Shown here piece after piece: positions 12,901 to 58,133 of a stretch of DNA of 64,000 bases (position 1 is the stretch's first letter; every line of letters begins with the position of its first letter). The position numbers and the translations under genes are program-made. Source of the stretch: Branchiostoma floridae (lineage: Eukaryota; Chordata; Leptocardii; Amphioxiformes; Branchiostomatidae); the NCBI RefSeq assembly GCF_000003815.2, contig NC_049986.1, forward strand, positions 752,864-816,863, written 5' to 3'. The notes under the pieces were generated by a model. The model did no database searches, was not told where the DNA came from, and saw nothing but the letters and a program-made list of their open reading frames with translations.

Positions 12901-15900
12901 TTTTTTTAAAGCTTGCTGATGAAAATGAATTTTAAAATGTAAGCATGTATTGGTATTGTATTGGTATGATCCATGTTGAAGTTTGTAAATTTCATTTAAC
13001 ACAAACAAATTGATTAATAGAATTTTCGGTCGCACATCTTTCAACCTATTTTGGAAGTGCTCAGAACAATTGGATCACCACTACTGAAGAAAGTATACAA
13101 GCTTCTTAAAATGGGTTGGTCAGACATACAAGAAGTCTGTGGTCATTACGTACGTGTACATGTGGGTATTCTACAATTTAACAGTACACTTTAATATCAC
13201 TTAAACACGGTATTTAAAAACTATGCTCAACAGCTTACAATTTTGTTTTTTCTACTAACTGCATGCTATTGCATGTTCACAAAGTTGTAACATGGAACAT
13301 TTGGTTGCTATATTTATGACCCTTGACTGTTACCCTTGCCCTGGTGTGTATTTTTCAGGAACGTGGGATGCACGCTCTGTACCTCGTACTGTCTGACTCT
13401 AACAGTAAAGTTAGTCTCTGTCCTAACTCCCATTCACATGCATGGACTTCATATGTCATACATTTTACATGAGACACCTTATATTTCCAATATGTAACCC
13501 ATTGACAATGAGTTAGAAAATCTAATTAATAAATGCATGGTCTATACTATAGCCCAATATCTAGAAATTTACCTTCCTAATGCATGGATAATCTTTTTTA
13601 GACTGAATTTGATTAATACATGTATCTTAATAACCTGATTCAAAACTACATGTAACTAACTGATCTCTGGTTCAAAACTACTAATAAATAATTATAGTAC
13701 TAACCAATGTTGTAATTATACTACTAGTACTAACATTGTAATCTGAGTTACATGTAGGATGTTTCCTCCTATTATGTTCCAACAAGATACATGTGTAATA
13801 AAAACTATGCATCTTGAAAAAAAATTGATGTTTTCTTATACTAATGCAGGGAAATTTTGGGGTATTTCAAGCACAGATATAAGGACCCAAATCTCCCTTC
13901 TCAACTTAGGGTTTTCCCATAATTGATAATGCTAATAAGGGGTGGTCAGGATACTTTTTTTATATCATTTTCATTCAGGGACCAAAATCTGAAACCAGAT
14001 ATGGAATACTGGCTGGAATCTTAAATCAGACTGCCAAATCTGAAACATAGCATAGCCTGGTATGATAACACTAAACTTCTTATACATGTGTCTACTAGAC
14101 TGAACAGATGAACAAACTTGAATCTGTATCTGTGTAGCTAGCGTAACCGCCCTTTGGTATAACACACCAGCTTGAATACAATGAAAAAAGCTAACACACA
14201 CACATAACACTGGTGAAATCCAGTTAGGCCTTGTACAACATACCTGGCAACATGCACCCTTTATCCTTACCTGATACTTCTTTAAACCTGCCACATGTTT
14301 TCATGTACAAACACTGGCCAACAGTGGAACAAACAAGCAGGTCACTTCAGAATCTATTATACCCCCCTCACATTAGGCGCGATTCGATCGGACGACGAGT
14401 CATGACCGTGATGCCGACGAAGAAATGGCAGAGTTCCCCCTTCCCGTCAGGGTCATGCCTCCTCGTAATTTAGAGCTCGCAGACTCGTCGTCCGATCGAA
14501 TCGTGCCTAATGTGAGGGGGGTATTACCACACACCAAGAAGTAAAGAAAAATAGGGAAAAAAAGGCCTGAACAGGGTTGGCAGTTGGCCAGCAAAACAAC
14601 ATGAACCTTTTTTTTCCTAATTGCCACTCTGACAGACAAAAAGCGAAGGTGTTGAAGTGCTGTAGACTTTAGAAGGTGAAGGCCTCACCTGGCTTGGTGA
14701 AGTGGTTGAGTAAACATTACCCTCACAATGGACACCAAACTGACCAAAGACGCTACCCTCAAAAACACTCAAAACCTTTCAGCACACAACAAACCAGGGT
14801 TGTAGCCAGCACCTGTCCTTCAGTCCTTTGAAGGAATTTTGGAGCTGGGGGCTGAAAAAAGTTTTCCCCATTCCGTCCCCAGGGACAAACAAAAATTGAT
14901 ATGTAAAGATATAAAAAAACTGAAACCCATGTGTTCTTCCTCACCAAAACAGATGACATTGAACAGCTTATAGTCTTCAAGCAAAATTTGCACCTCAAAA
15001 TGCAGGAAATATTGTTTCAGAGGGTCTAGGTTTCAAAATTTTCTGGGACCCAGACCCCCTAGAAATGACGCGCAACACCACTCAAAATCGAGGGGACTGA
15101 AAACGATTTCAGGCTGGCTACAACCCTGCAACAAACTGTAACGCACCCAACATCTTATGCTGACTTGTAGGCACGGTCTTACTAGGTTCTCTCTTCGTGT
15201 TTTGGCACGTAGGAGCGAGGGAAAACGATGAGTGCCAGCAGCAGTGGTAGCGGAGACAGCAGGAACCCGGAGAGGGTGACCAGATCCAAGTCTTACGACT
15301 CCGGCTTCTCAGACTACAAGGTAAGATTACAAGGTGGCCTTCATACTTGTTTGGCGGTCGTTGTGATGTGTTTAAGCTGCCGGACTAGGTTTCAAAACTG
15401 TGACAGAAATTTCTATAAGGAGCCATGTTTCAAGTCACCATTAGAGAACAAGAATTTCATGCCTCTACTTACACATCTCCACAACAAACAGTTAGGTGAC
15501 ATATACATGTAGTTCCCTCAGTTACTAGAAACTAAACAATTAACAGTACAGGTATATACTGTCTTGATTCTATTGTGTTTTCACTAAAAACATCGAGCAC
15601 GATTAAAATGGGGACTGAGCAGAGCACTTTGTAGTTTGGACTAATGCTTGTAGACTTTCACGGACTACACCTATATATCAGATATTTTGTGAAAATGTAT
15701 ATTGAAAGGGAATTAATATGTAGNNNNNNNNNNNNNNNNNNNNNNNNNNNNNNNNNNNNNNNNNNNNNNNNNNNNNNNNNNNNNNNNNNNNNNNNNNNNN
15801 NNNNNNNNNNNNNNNNNNNNNNNNNNNNNNNNNNNNNNNNNNNNNNNNNNNNNNNNNNNNNNNNNNNNNNNNNNNNNNNNNNNNNNNNNNNNNNNNNNNN

Positions 15901-45694: not shown

Positions 45695-48600
45695 ATGAGC
45701 CCATTTTCTTTGAGTAGAGCCACATTACAGTGCGTCAGGAAAGGGTCACAGGTAAGTTTACATGTGACGTTATATTATTTGCTCTGACCACCGTGATGAG
45801 CTTTTTATAGGAATGGTCCTATAGCTATGTATATACCTGTATTCAAGTGAAATGCAAGTAGGGATCTTGATTATTCTGTGATCTTCTCCAATAGTTCAAA
45901 GTTATATTCAATAATTTGTGTATCTGAGTTTCAATTTATGCTTTGCTTTTTTTCAGTGTGGCTTGTTTGCAGCAAAGAACAGGACTTTTTGTCCAGGTAA
46001 GACTAGAGTTGTAATGTTTTTTGTTTGTTTTTATCATTACATCGACTCATAAATGATGAATTATGATTTATATTTGTTGTGAGTCTCCATCTTTCATCAA
46101 TTGATTTCAGCAATATCTTGCTAGAATTTCCTTAGCCAGACCCATTAGATCTGACAGGCTCACAAGATCATAATAACATTATAGTACACCTTTAAATGTC
46201 AGAGCCATTTGCAAATCCCATCCCTACTTCTATCCACCTAATGTGACTTCGAGTACATAATCATATTTATCTGTAGCCTGGGTACTACGTACCACGTCTG
46301 TAACGTAGCGTTGTTATTAGGGGTGGGTACTGGTACAGAAAATTCAGGTCCAGGTCCGGTTCAGGTCCAGAGGATCAGGTCCAGGTTTGAACCTGAACCT
46401 GATTCAGTATGTGAGAACCCTTTGAATGGACGATACTCAAAACATAGTCCATTTCTTGACAACAAAAAAAGTATGCTTTGTGGCGTATTTGACCAAGTTA
46501 CCATTCTAAAATATTACTAGTACTTAAACCTAAGGATTAACTGTCTCTGTATGATTGACTGTAAAACTTTGTGGAAATTGCTATTGCTCCGCTCTTGCTA
46601 TTTTCTTCGACCAGAAAGTACCAAAATGTGTGAATTCATGATCATATAATCTTTTTTTTTTTTTCTAAAAGGTCCAACATCCGGTTCACTGAATTTTTTC
46701 AGGTCTGGTTTTTCCGGACCGGTCCTGATAAGAAAAAAGGGTTTTGTACCGGTACACCGTACGGTACCCAGCCCTAGTTGTTGTAGCAAGCGAAAGTATT
46801 TAGCCAGCAGTTACTAAGGAGGATGGTACTCAGGCTAATTTATCTGACCAAGAAGCTTTAAACAAAGTTGATGAAAGCTCCTTGATCTGATACTTCCAGG
46901 ACTGATGAACTGGTCTATCCTTTCCCTAGGTACCAGATCTGCCAGTCAGACAGCCTCCAGGTCCAGCTCCCTCCCCCCTCCCCATGCCTGGTTCCTGCTG
47001 TCCATCCCTGCTGCAGCCTTTGGGCTGGGCACATGGCAGGTCCAGAGGAGACAGTGGAAGTTAGACTTGATTAAAGACATGGAGGCCAGGACAAGCAGAC
47101 ATCCTGTTCCTATACCCTCGGAGTAAGTAGTTATGTTTATAAAGAACTGAACACACTTGAGAAGAGAATCTATGGTCAGGTGTGCTTGACTTAAAACAAG
47201 AGTCATGGCAAGGCCACATTGCACTGATAGTAGAGGGTCTGCATGGGGGGTCCCGACAACGATTTATGCTGAATTCAGAAGAACCCACTATGTATTACGC
47301 TAAATCAAGAAAGGCAATTATGCTAAATTTGGTGGCCTTGCTACGGATTACGTAGATTACGGTTTTCTCTACAACTTACAGGAAATAAAAATAAGCTGCA
47401 TGGAGACCCTCCTAGTAGGGGTGGGTACAAGTATAGAAAATTCAGGTACAGGTCTGGTTCAGGCCCAGAATATCAGGTTCAGGTTCAGATCTGAATCTAA
47501 TAGTTAATAAAAACTTGTTGATGGCAGATACTCATAACAATGGTCCAATTTTCTGCCAAACAATCAATTGGCAGAGTATCCGACTCCCACTGTCTTCATG
47601 TAAACTCTGAAGAGGAGGCCATATATGAGAGAATATACAATCCCACCCTCAACAGAAAAGGGGGGCTACGTATGGAACTTTCCGGCACTTGGGACATAGC
47701 ATTACCCCCCCCCCCCCCCCCCCAACAAAACTTTTAGCTCCTGTAACTAAAACAACAGGAGCTAATTGACTCATTTGCATTAACTGTGTCTTAGCCTTGA
47801 TATCCTTTGAAATCCAAATTGTCTTCAGCTTGACTTTGGCTTAGCTTTGTTTTCTTTGGAATCCAAATTGTCTTCAGTCTGAATTGTCTTACAACCTTTC
47901 CTATTGGACATCTGAAATTGTCTTCATTCATAGTTAGAGTATAAAAGACCTGTTTCTTGCAGATCACTTCAGTGTCACTGACGAAGGAAAGTGGATTCTT
48001 TCCGAAACGTCTGACCGTTTCAAAACCATATCCAGTTGCTTGAGTAACTATTTTTGGCGTAAACTCTGAAAGTTTGATTGTAGAAATGACTATAAATGCT
48101 ACGCTAGTTTGCTCTCATTATTTTTTCAACCACATTTTTGTACTCATTTCTTTTTTCAGGCAACAGGACCTTGAGACAATGGAGTACAGACCAGTCAAAA
48201 TTAGAGGTAGCTTTGACCACTCCAAGGAGATGTACCTGTTACCCCGTTCCCTGAACACCCATGACACAGGAGGGGGCATGGGAGCCAGGGCACAGTCAGG
48301 GGCTCAGGTGGTCACACCTTTCCACTGCTCTGATACAGGGTAGGTGCCATCCAGGTCTTCTGCTTTTTTTTTTTGCTGTTTGCTCCATGACAATTGTGGC
48401 ATAGTAGTCCTACATTTTATCAGTCTAGAATCTACTACGGCATATAAAATATATATCCTGGGTGCATTCCAATTACTTTTGTGGCTCTACACTATCCCTT
48501 ATTTTGTGAAAACTGGTAGTGCTGTAAAGATCAAAATAATAAAACCCTTTTGTTGATGCTGATCCTACGATATTCATTTGATGGCCTTGACTTTGAGCAT

Positions 48601-50791
48601 ATTGAGATTTAAAGGTACTTTATCAGATTGTTCTTTGCTTCACATATAGGACAATTCTAGTGAACAGGAGATGGGTGTCCAAGGCATGCTAATTCTTTAA
48701 TATCCATTCAAAGACCTTGAGCAAAGGTAGTCTATATTTGATTGCTCTTTGATTCACACACAGGAGGACAATTCTAGTGAACAGGGGATGGGTGTCCAAG
48801 AAAAACATCAACCCAGCAACAAGACCAGATGGCCAGGTCAGTACTAAGATATATTATGTTTTGAGTATTAGATGTTTGACAGTTAGAAGCTACTTTGTTT
48901 GTGTAGACCAACATTTCAATACACGTTCAAGTTCCAACCTAGGTTTACAATAACTTGGGGTTTTCAAGTAACCATGTGGTCACTGAAAGATTGGATCTCA
49001 GAGGAACTCTGAGATAGATTTTTGGTACAAACATGTCTCTTGCTGTTCTCGTTTAGCTATCTTTCTAACTCTCCAAGCAGAGGCTCCGGCTGTTTTTTAA
49101 CGGGTTTTTTTAGTCGTTTTTATCGGGCTTTCTATTTTGTCATTTTTCTTGAAGTACGCCAGCCAGTTAGGTTTTGACACAGCAAGATAAAATTTAAAAA
49201 AAAAAAAGCCTGATAAAAACGACTAAAAAAAGGAGCCTAACCTCTGCTTGGAGAGTAATCTTTCTCACTCACTCGCATTTAGCCCCACTTTAATATCAAG
49301 AGTATTTGAGTATTCGGTTCTCACTAGGGGTTTTCTCATTGGACCAGTCCAGAAAAAACGGACCTGAAAAAATTCATTGGACCGGATGTTGGACCTATTG
49401 GAAAATGTACTGACTATATGATCAGGCATTAACAGGTTTCTGGGCTTACTGGTATAAGCAAATAACAAGAGGGAAGTAGAGTAGAGTCTTAAGTTATTTC
49501 TACCAAGTTCTACAGTCAACAGTACAGAAGCAGTTAGCCCTATGGAATTTTGTAAGTGGGATTCGAATACTCCACAAAACAGATTTCGCTGTTGCGAAAT
49601 GGACCATTGGTTTGACTATTGTCCATCCACAAGTTCTCACTCACCGAATCAGGTCCAGTTTCAGGTCCGAACCTGATCCTTTGGACCTGAACCAGACCTG
49701 GAAGTTAAATTTTCTGTGCCGGTACCCACCCCTAGTTCTCACTGATTTTGTGTTCGCTACAGGTTACAGGAGAGGTGGAAGTTACAGGATTAGTGAGGTT
49801 GAATGAAAAGGTGAGAAATCTATACGCGTTGTACTGCTGTGCTTGGATATTACATTGTATCAATTAAAAGATCAGTAGAGGCCCGTTAAAAGCAAAGGAG
49901 CTCTAAGTCAAAACAATGTCAGATGTGTAGCATGACTTGAAATGTGTGTGGAGATGATCTTCCCTTTAATGTGTTCTGAATGTAGGTCTCTCTAATTTGA
50001 TTGTTTCATTCCCTCAGAGAGCACCATTTGTCCCCAAGAATGACATTGCACACAACAGATGGCACTACAGGGATGTGGAGGCCATGGCTCAGATAACGGA
50101 GGCTCAGCCCATCTATATAGAAGCAGTTGGAGGTATAACTCTGTTTGGTTCCTGAAATATAGCCAGTGTTGTAGCATCTCTAGATTCATTTTGATCTTTA
50201 CCTTATCTGTGATAACTTATTTGATCTTTGTTATCAGTGGTAAATGTCAGTAGCCTGGGCGCCATCCTTTGTACTGACCGCAGGGTCAATCCGTGTTGGC
50301 CAGCAAGAAGATTGAGCAATGTTCCATGTTAGTACATACCCCATATAAAGGTTTCAATCATAAGTCTTTACCAAAACAAATAGGAAACTGTTTGCTGTCA
50401 CTGAACAACGATTACAGGACGTTTATCAGTTTTTATTAAATAGCTCCTGCCTGATTTAACAGTTAATTTTTCTTCTTTCACAGGGAGCACTGTACCAGGT
50501 GGACCCATAGGGGGTCAAACCAGGGTGCAACTCAGAAATGAACACATGCAATACATCCTCACATGGTATGTACTATTATTGTATACATGTACAAGTGCCT
50601 TCTGAAAATTTGGACTTGGTAGCATTGAAGATTGGAGGATTATTACCTTGTCTGCAAGGCTGTTTCACTAACATGTATATGATATTCGTTCAGATTTTCA
50701 CTTGTTTCTTGGATGTTCTTCCAGGTACTCATTGAGCATCTTGACTGCCATTGGCTGGTATTGGACCTACTTCAAGAAGGTGCCAAGATAG
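45695..50791 (+). CDS. SURF1: SURF1, cytochrome c oxidase assembly factor
   Basis: Nine exons: 45695-45751, 45957-45996, 46930-47122, 48160-48339, 48764-48836, 49763-49810, 50018-50132, 50484-50565, 50725-50791. All phases agree, giving 284 residues (human 300). The basic, Ser-rich N-terminus fits a mitochondrial presequence. The first membrane helix ([15 protein letters not shown], about 53-68) is followed by [12 protein letters not shown]. The intermembrane domain contains RGSFDH, the signature VNRGWV and [15 protein letters not shown]. The second helix ([13 protein letters not shown]) lies near the C-terminus. SURF1 sits in the mitochondrial inner membrane and assists early COX1/haem a assembly of complex IV. 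Its introns carry three copies of one TIR family, a ribozyme-like retroelement piece and a pseudo-exon. Confidence 0.95.
46318..46776. mobile_element. TIR element family K (copy 1), 8-bp TSD
   Basis: Starts TAGGGGTGGGTACTGGTAC and ends GTACGGTACCCAGCCCTA. Flanks are GTTGTTAT (46310-46317) and GTTGTTGT (46777-46784), 7 of 8 identical. The subterminal region repeats AGGTCCAGG / CCGGACC motifs. Confidence 0.75.
47416..47560. mobile_element. TIR element family K (copy 2, left end only)
   Basis: TAGGGGTGGGTACAAGTAT followed by the family's AAATTCAGGTACAGG region. The right end was not found, so this is a truncated copy in SURF1 intron 3. Confidence 0.55.
47974..48015 (+). ncRNA. Hammerhead-like ribozyme motif in a Penelope-like remnant
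   Basis: In order: GTCA, core CTGACGA (47978-47984), a 6-bp stem GGAAAG / CTTTCC, GAAAC (48004-48008), GTC, then TGAC pairing with the first GTCA. This fits the hammerhead scheme CUGANGA - stem - GAAA - helix III - GUC, with helix III reduced to the palindrome ACGT as in small Penelope-associated ribozymes. The surrounding 47745-48065 looks like a retroelement piece with diverged repeats of AAATTGTCTTCA. Activity is unproven. Confidence 0.5.
48570..48800 (+). repeat. Local duplication creating a SURF1 pseudo-exon
   Basis: The acceptor region and first part of exon 48764-48836 (ACAATTCTAGTGAACAGG, GATGGGTGTCCAAG) occur also at about 48651-48690, about 115 bp upstream. The intron flank is copied too (TTTGATTGCTCTTTG against GATTGTTCTTTGCTTC). 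The upstream copy lacks the rest of the exon and any donor in place, so it is a decayed pseudo-exon. Confidence 0.8.
49069..49255. mobile_element. MITE with ACTCTCCAAGCAGAGG ends
   Basis: TIRs ACTCTCCAAGCAGAGG and CCTCTGCTTGGAGAGT surround a T-rich/A-rich palindromic body (AACGGG...TTTTAGTCGTTTTTATC and inverse). A shorter relative is in the MED22 intron at 57275-57388. Confidence 0.75.
49325..49734. mobile_element. TIR element family K (copy 3), 8-bp TSD GTTCTCAC
   Basis: TAGGGGTTTTCTCATTGG to GTACCCACCCCTA, flanked by a perfect GTTCTCAC at 49317-49324 and 49735-49742. It ends 28 bp before the exon starting 49763, close to the branch-point zone. Confidence 0.85.
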
Positions 50792-50855
50792 TTTAGGCAG
50801 GGCCTCGATGTGAAGCTTAGAGTAGGACCTGCAACTTGAGCTGAGATTGATCTTC

Positions 50856-50861
50856 ATTAAA
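50856..50861 (+). terminator. Candidate SURF1 poly(A) signal ATTAAA
   Basis: ATTAAA lies 65 bp after the SURF1 stop codon, ahead of the large TIR element at 50970. A typical AATAAA is not closer. Confidence 0.4.
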
Positions 50862-50969
50862 ATTATTGTAACAATGTGGTAATTTTGTCAAATTTAGATT
50901 CTGCAATTAATTTTATGTGTGAATGGATACATTATATACGTCTTACTTCGGCTAGCTGTTCAACACAAT

Positions 50970-51816
50970 TACAGTCAAACCTGCCCGAGCGACCACCTCT
51001 TCTCAGCGACCACCTGGCCATTTCGACCGCTTTTTCTCGGTCCCGATTTTTTTCCCCATTGACGTAAGCATTAAGCGACCTTTTCTCAACGACCACCTGG
51101 CCAACGCGACCGCGACCGGCCCAAATTGGGACCCATAACGACCGCATCATTTTCAAAATTGAGGTTTTCATCGATTTTTGATGATAACTAGCGCGATTTT
51201 GTGCCGAAATCCTTGTAAGAAAATCCGAATCTAGTTGTTACATTTAAAAATCTATATCATTATAAAGTGAACGAATGCTGAAACGTATATAGCCTCATAC
51301 TCTTTAAAGAAAGATCTGTGTAGCTCATACCTTTTTACGAAACGTGTGAGTGCTTTTGTCCATCTGTACTGTACTGTACATTCAGCCGTGGGTAAGTACG
51401 CTATCGGGACGTACCGGGCATCGAATTCGAAAGGTGCACCGTAGTTATTTCAGATCAAGAACATAGCGACGCATTAAGGCTTGTATGGTAGTTAACTGAC
51501 AGCATCAAAGTTCCCTTACTGTCTAAAACGTTAGTGTACAAATACTTGAGCTTTAAAACACTGTATCGTATAAAAATTCGATAAAAGCTTGGGGTTAAAT
51601 TTACAATTTACAGTGTGCGTGTTGTATTTGACATTAAATACCTCGCTTCTTTGCGTGCGTGCAGTGTGCTTGCTATTTGCCATTCAACACAGCGGAAACC
51701 ATTTATACTTTGCATCGGGCATGTTTTAAGTCGATACTCCTCTCAGCGACCACCTGTCCAAATCGACCGTTTTTTTCCGGTCCGCCGGGTGGTCGACTTG
51801 GGCAGGTTTGACTGTA
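50970..51816. mobile_element. Mariner-like TIR element family N, 0.85 kb, between SURF1 and RPL7A
   Basis: TACAGTCAAACCTGCCCGAG and GGGCAGGTTTGACTGTA ends, with TA at both borders. Subterminal blocks repeat CGACCACCTGGCC / AGCGACCACC. The terminal 14 bp match family M (19449-19630). The central ~500 bp is AT-rich and noncoding. It occupies most of the 1.27 kb between the two stop codons. Confidence 0.8.
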
Positions 51817-52011
51817 TATCATTTAGTTATCTTGAGCCTTTGCTAGAATCAGAAGGTAATAAGTAATATCCTGTCCACAGCTCTTTTTGTGTAAATCTAA
51901 AGAAAGAAATAAACCAGTCTTCACTAGATGTCTTGCCTGTCTTTCTCCTTATGTGATGAAATTGAACACATGTAGACACAAGTACTAAAACACATATTTG
52001 GGATGGAAATG

Positions 52012-52017
52012 TTTATT
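52012..52017 (-). terminator. RPL7A poly(A) signal AATAAA
   Basis: AATAAA on the minus strand 41 bp after the stop codon, giving the very short 3' UTR usual for ribosomal protein genes. Confidence 0.7.
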
Positions 52018-52057
52018 ACATTTTTTAGAGCTTTTCCTCTGATAAATCTGTGGATGT

Positions 52058-55000
52058 CTATCCCATCTTCTGAGCAAGCTCCTTGGCCTTGGCCTTCTCC
52101 AGTTTGGCGATGCGGGCGAGGGACTTGTTGCCCATGATACCGCCTCCCCAGTGTCGCCGGATCTGCAAACATGAAACAGAAATGCTCAAAAGTTGAAAGC
52201 ATCAATTTACCCTACAAGCCGTCTGCATAGTGGTATGTGCTAAGGTAAGAATGCTCAGAATTACCCACATGGTAACAACAGTTATAATTTCTGACATTGC
52301 GCACTGTGTCATCATAGCATTCGTGGCAAGAAACACTGGGAAAGACCATTTAGACAGTATGGTGTCACATAAATAATTGTAAATAATTACAAGTATTTGT
52401 ATGTGTTAATTTATGTCGTGTGTATTTTTATATATGTCCAGGAAGACTTGCAGTGTAAAATATTTGGTATCACAGGTAATGGACAAATGAAGCCTCTCAA
52501 ACATACTGACCTCGTCAAATCTTTCGTTGTAGTTGTTCTTGACAGCGTCAATCAGCTTGGCTAGTTGTCCCTTGTCCTCACTATACAAATGGAAAGAATA
52601 TGAAATTTGGTCTTTCAATGTTATGCCAGGACTGCATACAAAGAAGTTTGTATCAGGCTTAACTTGTATACACGACACACAATAAAATGACATTGACTGT
52701 GGCTGCTCAGTATTAAAAAGCTCGATTTTTTGTTCATCAAAAATCTTCAGGTGAAGAAATTCATACATCACAGCAGCCCAGTAATTGCAATACACTTTGC
52801 CAGTAAACTTCCCTTAATTTTTTCAGAAAAACCATATTCCTAATGATTGTACAAAAAGCATACAACAAAATCATAAGAATGTGAAGAACTTACGGGTTAA
52901 CTTTACTGAAGGCTACACAGGTGCAGGTCTTGCGGTGCACCAGTCTGCCGAGACGTGCCTTCCCTTTCACAATGCAGTAGGGAACGTTCATTTTCCGACA
53001 CAGGGCTGGCAAGAAGAGCACCAACTGTTGAGTAAAAACACCATATCTCAGAATGGAGGACAAAGCAAGTTGTACATACAGTGCATTCAAGCCAGAAAAG
53101 TTTCCAAACTCCTCCCAGTGGGTTCCTTGCGTATTCCTTGTTTGTTGGTAGGCTGCTCAGCATTAAAAAGCTCGTATTATTTGTTCAACACAAAACTTCA
53201 GGTGAAGAAATTCAATCATCACAGCAGCACAAGGACCAAAAAAAATCATTTCAGGCCCAATCAAGCCTTTATCAACCGATACATTATTTACAAAAGTTCT
53301 AGAGCTTACTTTTATCTGTCAATGTCATTACACTGGATTTACTAACATGAATATTGAATACCAAATAAACAGGTTAACAGATGGAAGCTATGAGTTGTAT
53401 ATCAAACCCATACCTCAATAGGGTCGACATCATGAGCGATGACCACCAGCTGTGCCTTCTTGGACTCCACCAGGGTGGTGACCGTGTTGACACCAGAACG
53501 GATGACAGCGGGACGTTCTGTTGGGACATCCTCCTTCCCAGACACGCGCTTCTTAGCACGCTCCATCAGACGCTTCTTCCTCTCTGCTTTGGTCTCGGGG
53601 CGGTACTTCTGAGCTAGGCGGAACAGCTGAGTAGCTGGAGAGATAAGGAATACATCATTCATGAGGATATGGCAGGCAAGCATATAACCCAAAGCTGTTC
53701 TGTGCACAATTTAGTTTTTGTGTCATAACTGTCTAGTGCCCATACATTTATATGTACACCTGAAATCTTGTGTGGAGGAGCATTACATGATTTAAAGCAT
53801 GGTACACTGCAAGTAGAGTTTCATGCTAAGCAGCCTTGGTGTTCCCTAAAGGTTACCATATGAAGTATTCTAGTTATGATCTCACTTGTAGACAAAATCT
53901 GAGGGTCAATCAGGGCTCCAGGCAGCGTCCGTTTTTCTGTCAATGGACAGAAATGTGCTGCGTCTGACGGAAAAATTTTAAAACCAATCCGTCAACCTTG
54001 ACGGACAAAAATCCTTGGTGGAAGCAACAGGCAGCTTGGGGATGCTGTCCACGGCAGTAAAAAACACACACTGTTTGTTTTACTATTGTTATGATTGTTG
54101 ACAATGTGTGTCGGCGCTCTTTTGAATACGATAATCTCATTAAAACCAGTTTTTCAGGGTCTCAGTTCAGTCCTTCTAATTGATTTTCGTGGTTTTTGCG
54201 ATGATCGTAATTGGCTGACGGAAAAAAATTTCGAGCTGGCTAAAGCCCTGGGGTCAATACTAGCAATCTGCAAAGAGCAATAGAGTACAGGAATCATACA
54301 CTTTTCAAATATAAAACTAGTAGTAGCCACAGTATTCAGATCGGCGAGTGAAGATACTGTTTTCCTCACCACACAAGTGTGAATTGGACATCCATTCATC
54401 ATGTACTGTGGCTAAAAATACTTGCTCACATTTAACATTCAGTACCCAAACATCAAAAGAATACTTAAAACCCTTCTACCCCATCATCTGATTTTCAAGC
54501 AGGCTTATTCTAACACTACGCCAGCTACAGCTACACCCCGCAGGGTTCTAGCCAGGATTTTATTTTAGCGTAGTGGGAATGGCATGGTAGCGAAGCGACT
54601 TATCAGGAGATTGGTGTGGAAAGGGGGTCTTGGTCCTTCCACAGTGAGATTTGAAGATATAGAGTTAAGAGTTAGGATTTTTAGTTCAGTTTTGAGTGGC
54701 ATATTATCATTTTTCATTGTTCAGACATTGATTAGTCATTGTTGAACAAGCAAATGACAGCAAAGCACCACTACACTAGTTAAAAATTAGCGTAGTGGCC
54801 CTTATTTTAGCGTAGGGGTCACAAATTTTAGCGTAGGGGCCCACTACGCTAAAATGCACTGGCTAGAACCCTGAACTGTCCCCTATGTTTTACATGTAAG
54901 AGGACACAATGTCTCCGTACCTGTCTGCCTGTCTAGCGCCTGTGTGAACTGGTTGATTGGTGGTGGAACCTTCAGACGCTTGTACAGGATGGCCCGCTGA

Positions 55001-56349
55001 CGCTGGAGGCGGACATACTTGGGCCAGCGCACGAAACGGCTCAAGTCGCGCTTCGGCTGGATGTCCTGGCCTGTCAACACATTTACATTTGTCATTACAA
55101 CACATTTTCTTTCACCATTTTGGTAGTAAAGAATAAGACTGTCACTTAAGTCATTGTGCCTCAGCGATCTTGGTGGTTGTGGTTGATATCATTGACGCAT
55201 CAACTAGCAAATATTGGGATCATCACTGGCACCTAGAGATTTTCAATCTTTGTAGAGCAACAGACATTAAACAGGAGAATTAAAAAATGACATTACCTTA
55301 CTTTAATTCCTCCTGTGCACGCACTTATGCTAATTCTTCTTACACACACAAATCGACACAGCTTTCTTATAATGTTGGCAGAGAAACACAGATTTCTTTT
55401 CCAAAATATTTGTCCATACCGATGCCATAGTTGCGAGGCCTCTTCTCGAACAGAGGGTTCTGTTCCTTCTTCTTAGGCTCAGCCTTCCTCGCCACCGCTG
55501 GGGGCGGGGCCACCTTCTTCCCCCTCGAGCGAGCAACTTTTCCCTTCGGCTGGGGAGATCAAGAGATGATACTTATTTTTATAATCAACAAAATATTGCA
55601 TGGTAATGAACATGTATGAATATGAATATGATTTACCTCAGCTTTAAAATTCTTGCAGTCAAAGTTTTGGTGCTGTCTTTGTCATAAAAAAATGTCTTTC
55701 AATTTCATGGAATATTGTACAGGGTTGGAAAAAATAATTGATTTGACTGTTCGTGTAACAAATTATTTTGAGCATATAAGCAGCCACAGTATTCAGATCG
55801 GCGAGTGAAGATTCAGTTTTCCTCAGCACACAAGTGTGAATTGGACATCCATTCATCATGTACTGTGGTTTACAATTTTTTCTTGACACTATACCTACTA
55901 GCAGAATAATTTTAGAATATCTGAGTTTTCAACATGTGATTGTGATAGTTAGAAACACAAGGTTCATCTGTTTTGACTATGGCGGATAGGGCCAACTTTT
56001 TATGTCTTTCCAACTAGCCATACAGCGTTTACAAATTCAATGCGTTACATGCAGGTACAAAAGCACAATGCTGACAAATCTCTAAAGGTGTAACATTTTG
56101 GTCTGGGCCTCGTCACAAAAATTATGCTGTTTTCCACCCCGGTCCATGCTGAATCCGGCATCTCCATCCACCTACAAAAACGCCTTTGTTTCCGACTCAT
56201 TTTCACAACCATCGACCAAAATAACACCAGGGAAAATATCTTCATCACTTTGGGCTTCAGTATGAACTAAAATATGAGCAAGTATGTGAGGAAATAGCAA
56301 GGATTTCAGTCGATTCATGTTCCGATGTCAGATTTTCAACACCCACCAT
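52058..56349 (-). CDS. RPL7A: Ribosomal protein L7a (eL8), host of six snoRNAs
   Basis: Seven exons, minus strand: 56349-56347 (ATG only), 55549-55420, 55070-54921, 53634-53414, 53024-52894, 52580-52511, 52162-52058. Phases agree, giving 269 residues (human 266). The protein has a basic N-terminus ([14 protein letters not shown]), [20 protein letters not shown], the strongly conserved [17 protein letters not shown], the L7Ae/L30e RNA-binding fold ([20 protein letters not shown], then [18 protein letters not shown]), and a basic C-terminus. It is a structural protein of the 60S subunit. The first exon contains only the start codon, and a pyrimidine-rich 5' TOP tract lies just upstream. Every intron carries one box C/D snoRNA. 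Confidence 0.97.
52249..52322 (-). ncRNA. Box C/D snoRNA in RPL7A intron 6 (predicted 18S guide)
   Basis: Terminal stem GAATGCT / AGCATTC (7 bp), box C ATGATGA and box D CTGA. Directly before box D stands GTGGGTAATT, which from memory complements the conserved 18S rRNA segment AATTACCCAC (10 bp). The fifth-nucleotide rule would point to the A of ATTACC. The snoRNA 3' end is about 86 nt from the acceptor, a usual distance. The family name is not assigned. Confidence 0.8.
52701..52778 (-). ncRNA. SNORD36: SNORD36-like box C/D snoRNA, RPL7A intron 5
   Basis: Terminal stem GGCTGCT / AGCAGCC, box C GTGATGT (one change from consensus), internal D' CTGA and C' TGATGAA, box D CTGA. The D guide ATCGAGCTTTTTAAT complements 18S ATTAAAAAGCTCG. 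The fifth-nucleotide rule lands on the first A of the A-run, the site methylated by vertebrate U36. It is a paralogue of 53151-53228. Confidence 0.88.
53151..53228 (-). ncRNA. SNORD36: SNORD36-like box C/D snoRNA, RPL7A intron 4
   Basis: Core stem GCTGCT / AGCAGC, box C GTGATGA, D' CTGA after GAATTTCTTCAC, box D CTGA after ACGAGCTTTTTAATG. The 18S guide is the same as in the intron 5 copy. The internal region differs (TTTTGTGTTGAACAAATAAT), so the copies have diverged between the guides. Confidence 0.88.
53911..54250. mobile_element. hAT-like MITE family E (copy 2), 8-bp TSD GGGTCAAT
   Basis: CAGGGCTCCAGGCAGC and GAGCTGGCTAAAGCCCTG ends, flanked by a perfect GGGTCAAT at 53903-53910 and 54251-54258. 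It lies in RPL7A intron 3 between the snoRNA and the acceptor. The other copy is nested at 10797-11160. Confidence 0.85.
54326..54412 (-). ncRNA. Box C/D snoRNA, RPL7A intron 3 (predicted 28S 5'-end guide, copy A)
   Basis: Stem GCCACAGTA / TACTGTGGC, box C ATGATGA, box D CTGA. The guide CTTCACTCGCCG ends two bases before box D. From memory it complements CGGCGAGTGAAG near the 5' end of eukaryotic large-subunit rRNA. The D' position is degenerate (GTGAGG) here, whereas the intron 1 paralogue has an intact CTGA. Confidence 0.8.
54541..54873. mobile_element. TIR element family H in RPL7A intron 3
   Basis: CAGGGTTCTAGCCAGGATTT and TGGCTAGAACCCTG termini. Subterminal TTTTAGCGTAGTGG and inverse are repeated. 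No matching target duplication was found. A single related left end is at 39747. Confidence 0.7.
55157..55231 (-). ncRNA. SNORD24: SNORD24 (U24) box C/D snoRNA, RPL7A intron 2
   Basis: Stem TGCC / GGCA, box C GTGATGA, box D CTGA. Both antisense elements of vertebrate U24 are present: ATATTTGCTA before the D' position, and ACCACCAAGATCG before box D, matching neighbouring sites in 28S rRNA. Vertebrate U24 also lies in an RPL7A intron. The 3' end is about 86 nt from the acceptor. Confidence 0.93.
55783..55868 (-). ncRNA. Box C/D snoRNA, RPL7A intron 1 (predicted 28S 5'-end guide, copy B)
   Basis: Stem CCACAGTA / TACTGTGG, box C ATGATGA, internal D' CTGA, box D CTGA preceded by the guide CTTCACTCGCCG. 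About 95 percent identical by eye to the intron 3 copy, including the stem, which points to recent duplication between introns of one gene. Confidence 0.82.
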
Positions 56350-56724
56350 TTTGACGAAGGTCCAAAAAGGAAGAGCAGAGGATTGTGGGTGCTATTGTCT
56401 CGTTGAATCTCACGTGATGTCACGAGATCTTGCTGTAGACTCTGCCATTACTCTTAGTGGGTGCGTTAGTGCGCGTGTTCACGTTCCTTAAATTTCTGAA
56501 ACATATTCTTATCCTTCTAGATAAAATAATACAAAAGAATATTACAGCTATTTTAGTATTAGCTTGACAATGCATGCTTTCGTCACGATAGATAGCTATA
56601 TCATAGACTAGGTTGCGTTAAAACCCCTTGACGAAAGTGGTTCCAACCAAAGACGACAAAGCGGGAAGTAAGATGGTAGATTTGTGGTACTGTTGCTCAC
56701 AAATCACAGAATTTAGGTGTTGAG
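56350..56724. promoter_or_regulatory. Bidirectional promoter RPL7A / MED22 with 5' TOP tract
   Basis: 375 bp separate the two divergent start codons. On the minus strand CTCTTCCTTTTTGG (about 56376-56363) lies 14 bp upstream of the RPL7A ATG and fits a 5' terminal oligopyrimidine start. On the plus strand GCGGGAAGTAAGATGG (56661-56676) combines an ETS-like and a YY1-like motif before MED22. A TCACGTGA E-box palindrome lies near 56411. No TATA box is obvious. Confidence 0.6.
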
Positions 56725-58133
56725 ATGTCACAACAGCGAGGTATAACACAGAGCAAAGAGTCACTACTCAAGTCTTACAACAAGCGCCTTAAAGATGACG
56801 TCAAATCTATCCTGGATAACTTCACAGAGATACTCAAGGCGGCCAAGGTAAAACCACTCACACTATAAATTGTGACAGATCCGTTGCTTTGTCGTTCTGT
56901 CCTTTCTCTGTGTGAACGTTTTCTGTAGCCCTTTCTGCACTTCAAACTGTAATTTGCAAATGATGTAGCGTTTTCTAGTAGTTTTGTGATGAAAAAAATA
57001 TTTTTTGTCGTGACCTGTGACCTAACTTCAAGCAGGTGACATTATAGCCTTACATGCATCTACTTGGACATAATTTAAAGTGTTAGCCAAAAGTTAATGA
57101 TAACAATAATAATAATACATCTGCTTGGATGTTTTTTCCCATCTCCTCAGGTGGAAGAACAGAACCAAGTGTCGACCCTGACACAGTCAGACCAGGCTCG
57201 GTACGAGATGCATGTCAGAGCCGCCAATATTGTGAGTATCAATACTCATAGTTTCTTGACTGTTGAAGCCTTTAATTCTCCAAGCAGAGGTTGAGCCGCA
57301 GAGATGTACGTAGTAGTAGTCAGGATTTTTACCAGTTAAAGCCCCGACTACTACTATATCTCCACAACTCAACCCCTGCTTGGAGAATGGTAGTATCCAT
57401 TCAACACAATGTAGCTCTAAGTCTAACAGACTGACATTTTTACCTTTTGTCAGTAGTGAATGGAGGTTTTGTATCTGTGTCTGTGTGACAGTGTCTGTTT
57501 TTGTTTGCTTCTGCAATCTGCACGTTTGAGTCGTTGTTTTCCCCATATTACTAGGCACATCGTGAACACGGACAGGTTAGGTCAAAGGTCCCAAAATAGG
57601 CTATCTTGTTTCTTCTCTTTGATTCCCTGCAATTTGCCTTATGAGACTTGAGAACTAGTGGAGAAATCAATTTTAATCAAGAAATGGACAAAAACTGAAA
57701 AAGGGTTATTCACAGAGACTGAAAATATTACTGGGAGCTATGAAATCTTTAATCTTCATTTGAATTTTTATCAGTCTGTATTATATTATGTATTAAGACA
57801 GACTTTTGCAACTCCAGCTATACTGTACTAGTACTTGTGACTTATTATATAAACAGATGATAGAAATAGCTTTTTTTCTAATCTTGTAAAAAGCGTGTTG
57901 CAATTCTTTTTTAGGTCCGAGCCGGTGAGTCGCTCATGAAGCTTGTTTCTGACCTGAAGACATTCCTCATTCTTAATGACTTTCCTTCTGTAAACGAAGG
58001 CATCAACCAGAGAACTCAGCAACTCAAGGCCATCCAGGCGGAGTGTGACACAAAACTGTTGGCTCTGAGAGATGACATGGCAGCTGACTTGTACGACTTA
58101 GAGGAAGAGTACTATTCCTCAAGATATAAGTGA
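56725..58133 (+). CDS. MED22: Mediator subunit 22 (SURF5)
   Basis: Three exons: 56725-56847, 57151-57231, 57915-58133, all in phase 0, giving 140 residues. This equals the short vertebrate isoform. The sequence is almost entirely the conserved helical core: [62 protein letters not shown] and a terminal [15 protein letters not shown]22 belongs to the Mediator head module in the nucleus and heterodimerises with MED11. The long C-terminal tail of the larger vertebrate isoform is absent. It is divergent from RPL7A and convergent with the ALDH gene. Confidence 0.96.
57275..57388. mobile_element. Short MITE in MED22 intron 2
   Basis: ATTCTCCAAGCAGAGGTTGA and CAACCCCTGCTTGGAGAAT ends with an inner AGTAGTAGTCAGG / CCCCGACTACTACT pair. 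Same family as 49069-49255. Confidence 0.75.

Follow-up and report, generated by a model that had tools for sequence, protein, structure and literature searches.

Amphioxus RPL7A carries one candidate box C/D snoRNA in each of its six introns, three of them without an Rfam match

The ribosomal protein gene RPL7A (eL8) of the amphioxus Branchiostoma floridae lies on the minus strand of a 64,000-nucleotide stretch of contig NC_049986.1 (positions 752,864 to 816,863; hereafter the window, whose own numbering is used throughout). As read from splice sites and translation, it has seven exons and six introns, all GT..AG, and encodes a product of 269 residues. We find that every intron contains a single candidate box C/D small nucleolar RNA (snoRNA) on the sense strand, and that RPL7A is very probably fully occupied as a host, its introns encoding six box C/D guide snoRNAs of the type usual in animals. 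The gene, the boxes, the stems, the uniqueness per intron, the complementarity to ribosomal RNA (rRNA) and the paralogy are present in the DNA itself.

A strict scan of both strands, which required box C RUGAUGA (one mismatch allowed), box D CUGA and a closing stem, gave seven matches in the window. Six of these are the RPL7A candidates, one per intron; the remaining match is a minus-strand one at 14944, and the antisense strand of the RPL7A introns had no strict match. Among dinucleotide shuffles (400 per intron), a mean of 0.035 introns scored and never more than one per shuffle, a figure that leans favourable because the stem cut-off of 5 pairs is that of the weakest of the six and was fixed after a first look. 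The chance of a strict match was 0.0025-0.01 per intron. An earlier sequence-only reading of this DNA had placed box C, box D and a closing stem on the sense strand of each intron, which the scan confirms, and had counted exactly one snoRNA per intron, which is borne out at the level of candidates. The count applies to box C/D RNAs; H/ACA RNAs were checked only through Rfam, with none at the gathering threshold in the window. A looser scan of the window returned 42 candidates, and keeping only those with 10 or more nucleotides (nt) of rRNA complement at box D, or with 8 or more stem pairs, left 9 rows, all at the six RPL7A loci, with 3 rows repeating an RNA with a different choice of box C. 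In the long intron 3 the same scan gave only the known RNA, with two choices of box C, and further C/D RNAs there were rejected. In addition to their boxes and stem, all six have an antisense element 10-15 nt long that lies no more than 2 nt from box D or D′. Elsewhere in the window, 4 of 575 other CTGA sites reach 10 nt of rRNA complement, 2 of these reaching 11 nt.

Half of the set belongs to known families (Table 1). In the covariance-model search, a check proposed with the earlier reading, the only Rfam gathering matches in the window are two SNORD36, in introns 4 and 5, and one SNORD24, in intron 2; the RNAs of introns 1, 3 and 6 matched no family at E values of 5 or less (window 51000-57500). 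The intron 5 RNA has box C GUGAUGU, with a single mismatch at the last base, which is u in the Rfam SNORD36 consensus as well. Within introns 1, 3 and 6 the only weak Rfam match is snoR28 in intron 1 (55596-55662, E 2.3), on the opposite strand and away from the snoRNA. In a search of the genome (513,431,437 bases, 431 contigs), the two RPL7A copies of SNORD36 were the only matches reported, with 70 of 95752 candidates scored, and the intron 6 RNA matched only itself.

Table 1. Coordinates of RPL7A, its six intronic RNAs and the related copy elsewhere in the genome (window positions unless a contig is named)
Feature	Position	Strand	Description
RPL7A coding region, snoRNA host	52058..56349	-	splice sites, translation, PDB eL8, Pfam Ribosomal_L7Ae
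RPL7A exons	56347-56349 (ATG), 55420-55549, 54921-55070, 53414-53634, 52894-53024, 52511-52580, 52058-52162	-	
Intron 1 candidate snoRNA	55784..55868	-	box C ATGATGA 55859-55853, D guide TTCACTCGCCG, box D CTGA 55796-55793, 8-bp closing stem; no Rfam family
Intron 2 SNORD24	55157..55231	-	Rfam RF00069, 50.1 bits vs gathering 41; two 28S guides
Intron 3 candidate snoRNA	54324..54414	-	intron 1 paralogue, same D guide, 11-bp closing stem, no internal CTGA; no Rfam family
Intron 4 SNORD36	53152..53227	-	Rfam RF00049, 63.7 bits vs cut-off 30; D and D′ guides
Intron 5 SNORD36	52702..52776	-	Rfam RF00049, 73.4 bits vs cut-off 30; same double guide
Intron 6 candidate snoRNA	52249..52322	-	box C ATGATGA, box D CTGA, 6-bp closing stem, D guide GTGGGTAATT; no Rfam family
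Third copy of intron 1/3 RNA	C2:28077022-28077110 (L037 5023-5111)	same as eEF2	between stretches matching eEF2 residues 548-606 and 608-689

Two of the 15 possible intron pairs resemble each other more than their own shuffles do, namely introns 1 and 3 (91/98 identical positions, 93%) and introns 4 and 5 (72/81, 89%), and the other 13 score no higher than the best of 30 shuffles. The two duplicated pairs claimed earlier are supported. In both, the likeness stops at most a few bases from the closing stem, a sharp boundary compatible either with the RNA itself having been copied or with strong selection acting on it. A genome search with the intron 1 RNA recovered, apart from introns 1 and 3, a single further place, on contig C2, at 82% identity. 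By its position this third copy appears to be intronic in eEF2, which implies that copying crossed genes. Human eEF2 hosts SNORD37, a different RNA. The guide together with box D, TTCACTCGCCGANCTGA, occurs exactly three times in the 513 Mb genome, and the reversed control does not occur.

Outside box C, the 11-nt guide, box D and the closing stem, which every copy retains, the three sequences differ. The intron 1 RNA has two internal CTGA motifs that are absent from the intron 3 and eEF2 copies, and the RNA is therefore read as a single-guide RNA. In the eEF2 copy an internal hairpin changes from CACAC-TT-GTGTG to CATGC-TTCG-GTATG, with one compensatory and one G-U change; a claim of covariation was dropped, since only three sequences are available and 148 of 500 shuffles match this result. 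A run of 20 bases that starts at box C (ATGATGAATGGATGTCCAAT; window 55840-55859, minus strand) is identical in all three copies and contains no rRNA complement in a scan for 9 pairs or more; a second function for it is possible.

These comparisons bear on how the set arose. The earlier reading attributed it to spread from intron to intron, and the two paralogous pairs within one gene agree with this, but the eEF2 copy and a SNORD36 pair in chicken RPL7A do not confine the copying to RPL7A or to recent times. A set formed mainly by recent copying inside RPL7A is plausible and on balance doubtful. In its favour are the high identity and sharp limits of the pair in introns 1 and 3, and the finding that the intron 4 and 5 RNAs are closer to each other (68/76 columns) than to the Rfam consensus (60/81 and 60/80 columns), which may reflect recent copying or homogenisation of an old pair. 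Against it, one member of the first family sits in eEF2, the RNAs of introns 2 and 6 have no paralogue in RPL7A, and the chicken copies (GGgCD18a/b) also occupy adjacent RPL7A introns in the excerpt of PMC2653536, so that the SNORD36 duplication may be old and its copies homogenised since. Cis- and trans-duplication of snoRNAs are established terms in the excerpts of both PMC2653536 and PMC3412847. According to the latter, the home of U24 is intron 2 of RPL7A in human and RPL5 in sponges; the presence of U24 in RPL7A here and in human therefore suggests that it settled in RPL7A no later than the amphioxus-vertebrate split, barring a parallel move.

Targets were sought as complements of 9 pairs or more in human rRNA (18S, 1869 bases; 28S as pieces) and, for 18S, in the animal's own genome. 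In both SNORD36 RNAs the D guide is directed at 18S A668 and the D′ guide at 28S A3703, and SNORD24 has both of its guides, to 28S C2338 and C2352 (human numbering; 28S site names as excerpted from PMC2653536 and PMC3412847, respectively). The B. floridae 18S was found at 15 genome matches, with the full length delimited by Rfam at L012 331-2146, and it contains the SNORD36 target site as A626, the counterpart of human A668. The D guide of intron 6, GTGGGTAATT, pairs with positions 443-452 of this 18S, with A447 (human A489) as the target. In introns 1 and 3, TTCACTCGCCG stands two bases before box D and is an 11-nt complement of 28S CGGCGAGTGAA. As the target nucleotide pairs with the fifth base from box D, the predicted target of these RNAs is 28S G91, through the box D guide alone. 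In print, the 28S target motif AACGGCGAGTGAA stands unchanged in primers for a nematode (28S; PMC10176109) and a fluke (called 18S by its paper; PMC11784040) and in oomycete ribosomal DNA (PMC10623814), each available in excerpt, and it is therefore taken to be present in this animal.

Other pairings for the intron 1 and 3 RNAs were rejected. A D′ guide in intron 1 was ruled out, as its two internal CTGA motifs have guides of only 5 and 6 nt and are missing from the other copies; a 9-nt complement to 5.8S was ruled out because it is not beside a box and is not kept in the eEF2 copy. Identity with SNORD26 or SNORD81 is unlikely, their 28S target probably lying elsewhere. The sites of SNORD26, SNORD81 and SNORD16, which we take to be 28S A398 and A400 and 18S A484, would all differ from the predicted sites 28S G91 and human 18S A489. 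With slightly less than even confidence, we propose that the RNA shared by introns 1 and 3 and eEF2 represents an undescribed snoRNA family methylating 28S G91, in a widely conserved motif of the 28S start (AGTAACGGCGAGTGAA), and that the intron 6 RNA methylates A447 of the animal's own 18S. Neither 28S G91 nor human 18S A489 is known to be methylated in vertebrates. If the proposal is right, this lineage modifies two conserved rRNA sites that are left bare in vertebrates.

The intron 6 RNA has an additional 14-bp complement (3 G-U) to positions 349-362 of the same 18S, about 80 nt upstream of the D target, which raises the alternative that it is a two-site helper of 18S folding or processing and not a methylation guide. 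We consider this improbable. In human 18S one base breaks the duplex. Against a helper role, among 299 random 51-base stretches of the window 1.7% reach 14 bp with 11 Watson-Crick pairs and 5.0% reach 11 Watson-Crick pairs.

For the set as a whole, as guide snoRNAs produced from RPL7A introns, we infer expression, processing, protein binding and methylation. Splicing would free each intron, which would be debranched, and exonucleases would trim both ends to the closing stem or the small nucleolar ribonucleoprotein. Boxes C and D would bind the core proteins 15.5K/SNU13, NOP56, NOP58 and fibrillarin, while the antisense stretch beside box D or D′ would select the rRNA nucleotide, with fibrillarin placed for its 2′-O-methylation. 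SNORD24 of intron 2 would thereby direct methylation of 28S C2338 and C2352, and the SNORD36 RNAs of introns 4 and 5 would each direct that of 18S A668 and 28S A3703. The intron 1 and 3 RNAs would act on 28S G91 by box D alone, and the intron 6 RNA on 18S A447 (human A489).

Several observations weigh against six working guides. Fold energy, which was dropped as a test, does not separate introns 6, 2 and 1 (z 0.36, -0.57 and -1.59) from shuffles, whereas the folds of introns 3, 4 and 5 (z -3.6, -2.5 and -2.3) are lower than theirs and favour working guides. The intron 1 and 3 RNAs sit farther from the 3′ splice site (about 235 and 690 nt) than those of introns 2, 4, 5 and 6 (86, 127, 121 and 86 nt; measured from RNA ends a few bases off those in Table 1). 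The intron 6 assignment depends on one 10-nt guide, a length also reached by the 4 of 575 other CTGA sites noted above. Additionally, the animal's own 28S was not found in the genome: a 124-base query had no match, and a 13-base 28S motif occurs at 5 places, none of them 28S, against 6 for its reversed control. None of twelve stretches around 18S copies from several contigs (L010-L021) showed the 28S motifs, 6 of them holding at least 5000 N, and a search for 28S in IMG/VR gave 2 contigs with no Rfam gathering match. The 28S targets consequently rest on human 28S and the printed fragments.

That only the RNAs of introns 2, 4 and 5 work as snoRNAs, and those of introns 1, 3 and 6 are chance motifs or decayed copies, would agree with the missing Rfam matches, the distant splice sites of introns 1 and 3, the loss from intron 3 of the internal CTGA boxes seen in intron 1 and the unremarkable folds of introns 1 and 6, but is very improbable given the low chance of a strict match per intron and the retention of box C, guide, box D and stem in introns 1 and 3 and eEF2 despite differences elsewhere; the internal CTGA, missing from two of three copies, need not be functional.

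As a comparison host, RPS8 yielded 5 exon stretches with one weak C/D motif and no Rfam gathering match; the comparison is a weak one, as the scanner misses a longer unpaired offset and the same offsets missed the eEF2 copy. Full occupancy is judged here from a single host gene of this genome.

The host gene is well defined. Its product matches PDB eL8/L7a over the whole length (best 1e-142) and contains the Pfam Ribosomal_L7Ae domain; the C/D core protein 15.5K is a member of the L7Ae family, like the RPL7A product. Six RPL7A exon stretches were recovered in the genome search, every one inside the window, and the gene therefore looks single-copy in B. floridae. Around it lies a Surfeit gene order (window 46905-58133) of SURF1 (+), RPL7A/SURF3 (-) and MED22/SURF5 (+), the same as in human. 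SURF1 ends near 50790, its start at 46905 being read by eye, and MED22 begins with an ATG at 56725, so that the divergent start codons of RPL7A and MED22 are about 380 bases apart; the last part of SURF1 and MED22 are supported by Pfam on pieces of each gene. We also observed repeat-like elements. RPL7A intron 3 contains a 333-base stretch (54541-54873) resembling a miniature inverted-repeat transposable element, whose terminal inverted repeats (CAGGGTTCTAGCCAG) are perfect over 15 bp and which has more TTTTAGCGTAG repeats inside. Between SURF1 and RPL7A is a transposon-like stretch of about 850 bases (50970-51816) with 20-nt inverted ends (TACAGTCAAACCTGCCCGAG, 95%), and an apparent MED22 intron holds a long imperfect hairpin (57275-57388; 34-nt arms, 82%).

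A literature search that covered few subscription journals gave no report on amphioxus RPL7A snoRNAs among the matches listed. GAS5 and SNHG1/UHG carry one C/D snoRNA in nearly every intron, as RPL7A does here, but those genes are non-coding whereas amphioxus RPL7A encodes a conserved protein. The excerpt of PMC7601244, with the title of its reference 54, describes Xenopus laevis U17 in all six introns of a ribosomal protein gene (named S8 there), which is likewise a six-intron gene with a snoRNA in every intron; that set repeats one H/ACA-class RNA six times, whereas amphioxus RPL7A has four different C/D RNAs. RPL7A had been called a complete snoRNA factory, and every intron is indeed occupied, but the Xenopus gene is a precedent for six of six introns.

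The vertebrate RPL7A cluster shares the host gene and the same two families, U24/SNORD24 and U36/SNORD36, and differs in that amphioxus introns 1, 3 and 6 also carry candidates, those without an Rfam match. U24 occupies intron 2 in human (PMC3412847, excerpt) as in amphioxus. Four RNAs, U24 and three U36, had been credited to the human gene; of these, U24, U36A and U36C are in print (PMC3412847 and PMC2653536, excerpts). The chicken pair GGgCD18a/b resembles the amphioxus one in being two adjacent U36 copies that each guide 18S A668 and 28S A3703, and the same excerpt of PMC2653536 places chicken U24 in intron 1 and the U36 copies in introns 3 and 4. An offset of a single intron, perhaps the one after the ATG, would align this set with amphioxus introns 2, 4 and 5. 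Human U36A and U36C are instead reported to divide the two sites (PMC2653536, excerpt), whereas the amphioxus copies each guide both. A table in that source gives yeast snR47 the same double guide, and the double-guide SNORD36 looks ancestral, with a later split in human. Together, the full-intron layout is of a known kind, and what amphioxus adds is a trio of RNAs unmatched in Rfam and two sites of predicted methylation. The locus provides an invertebrate-chordate reference for RPL7A, and a guide RNA without an Rfam match that was copied in two translation genes makes movement within and between hosts testable in related amphioxus.

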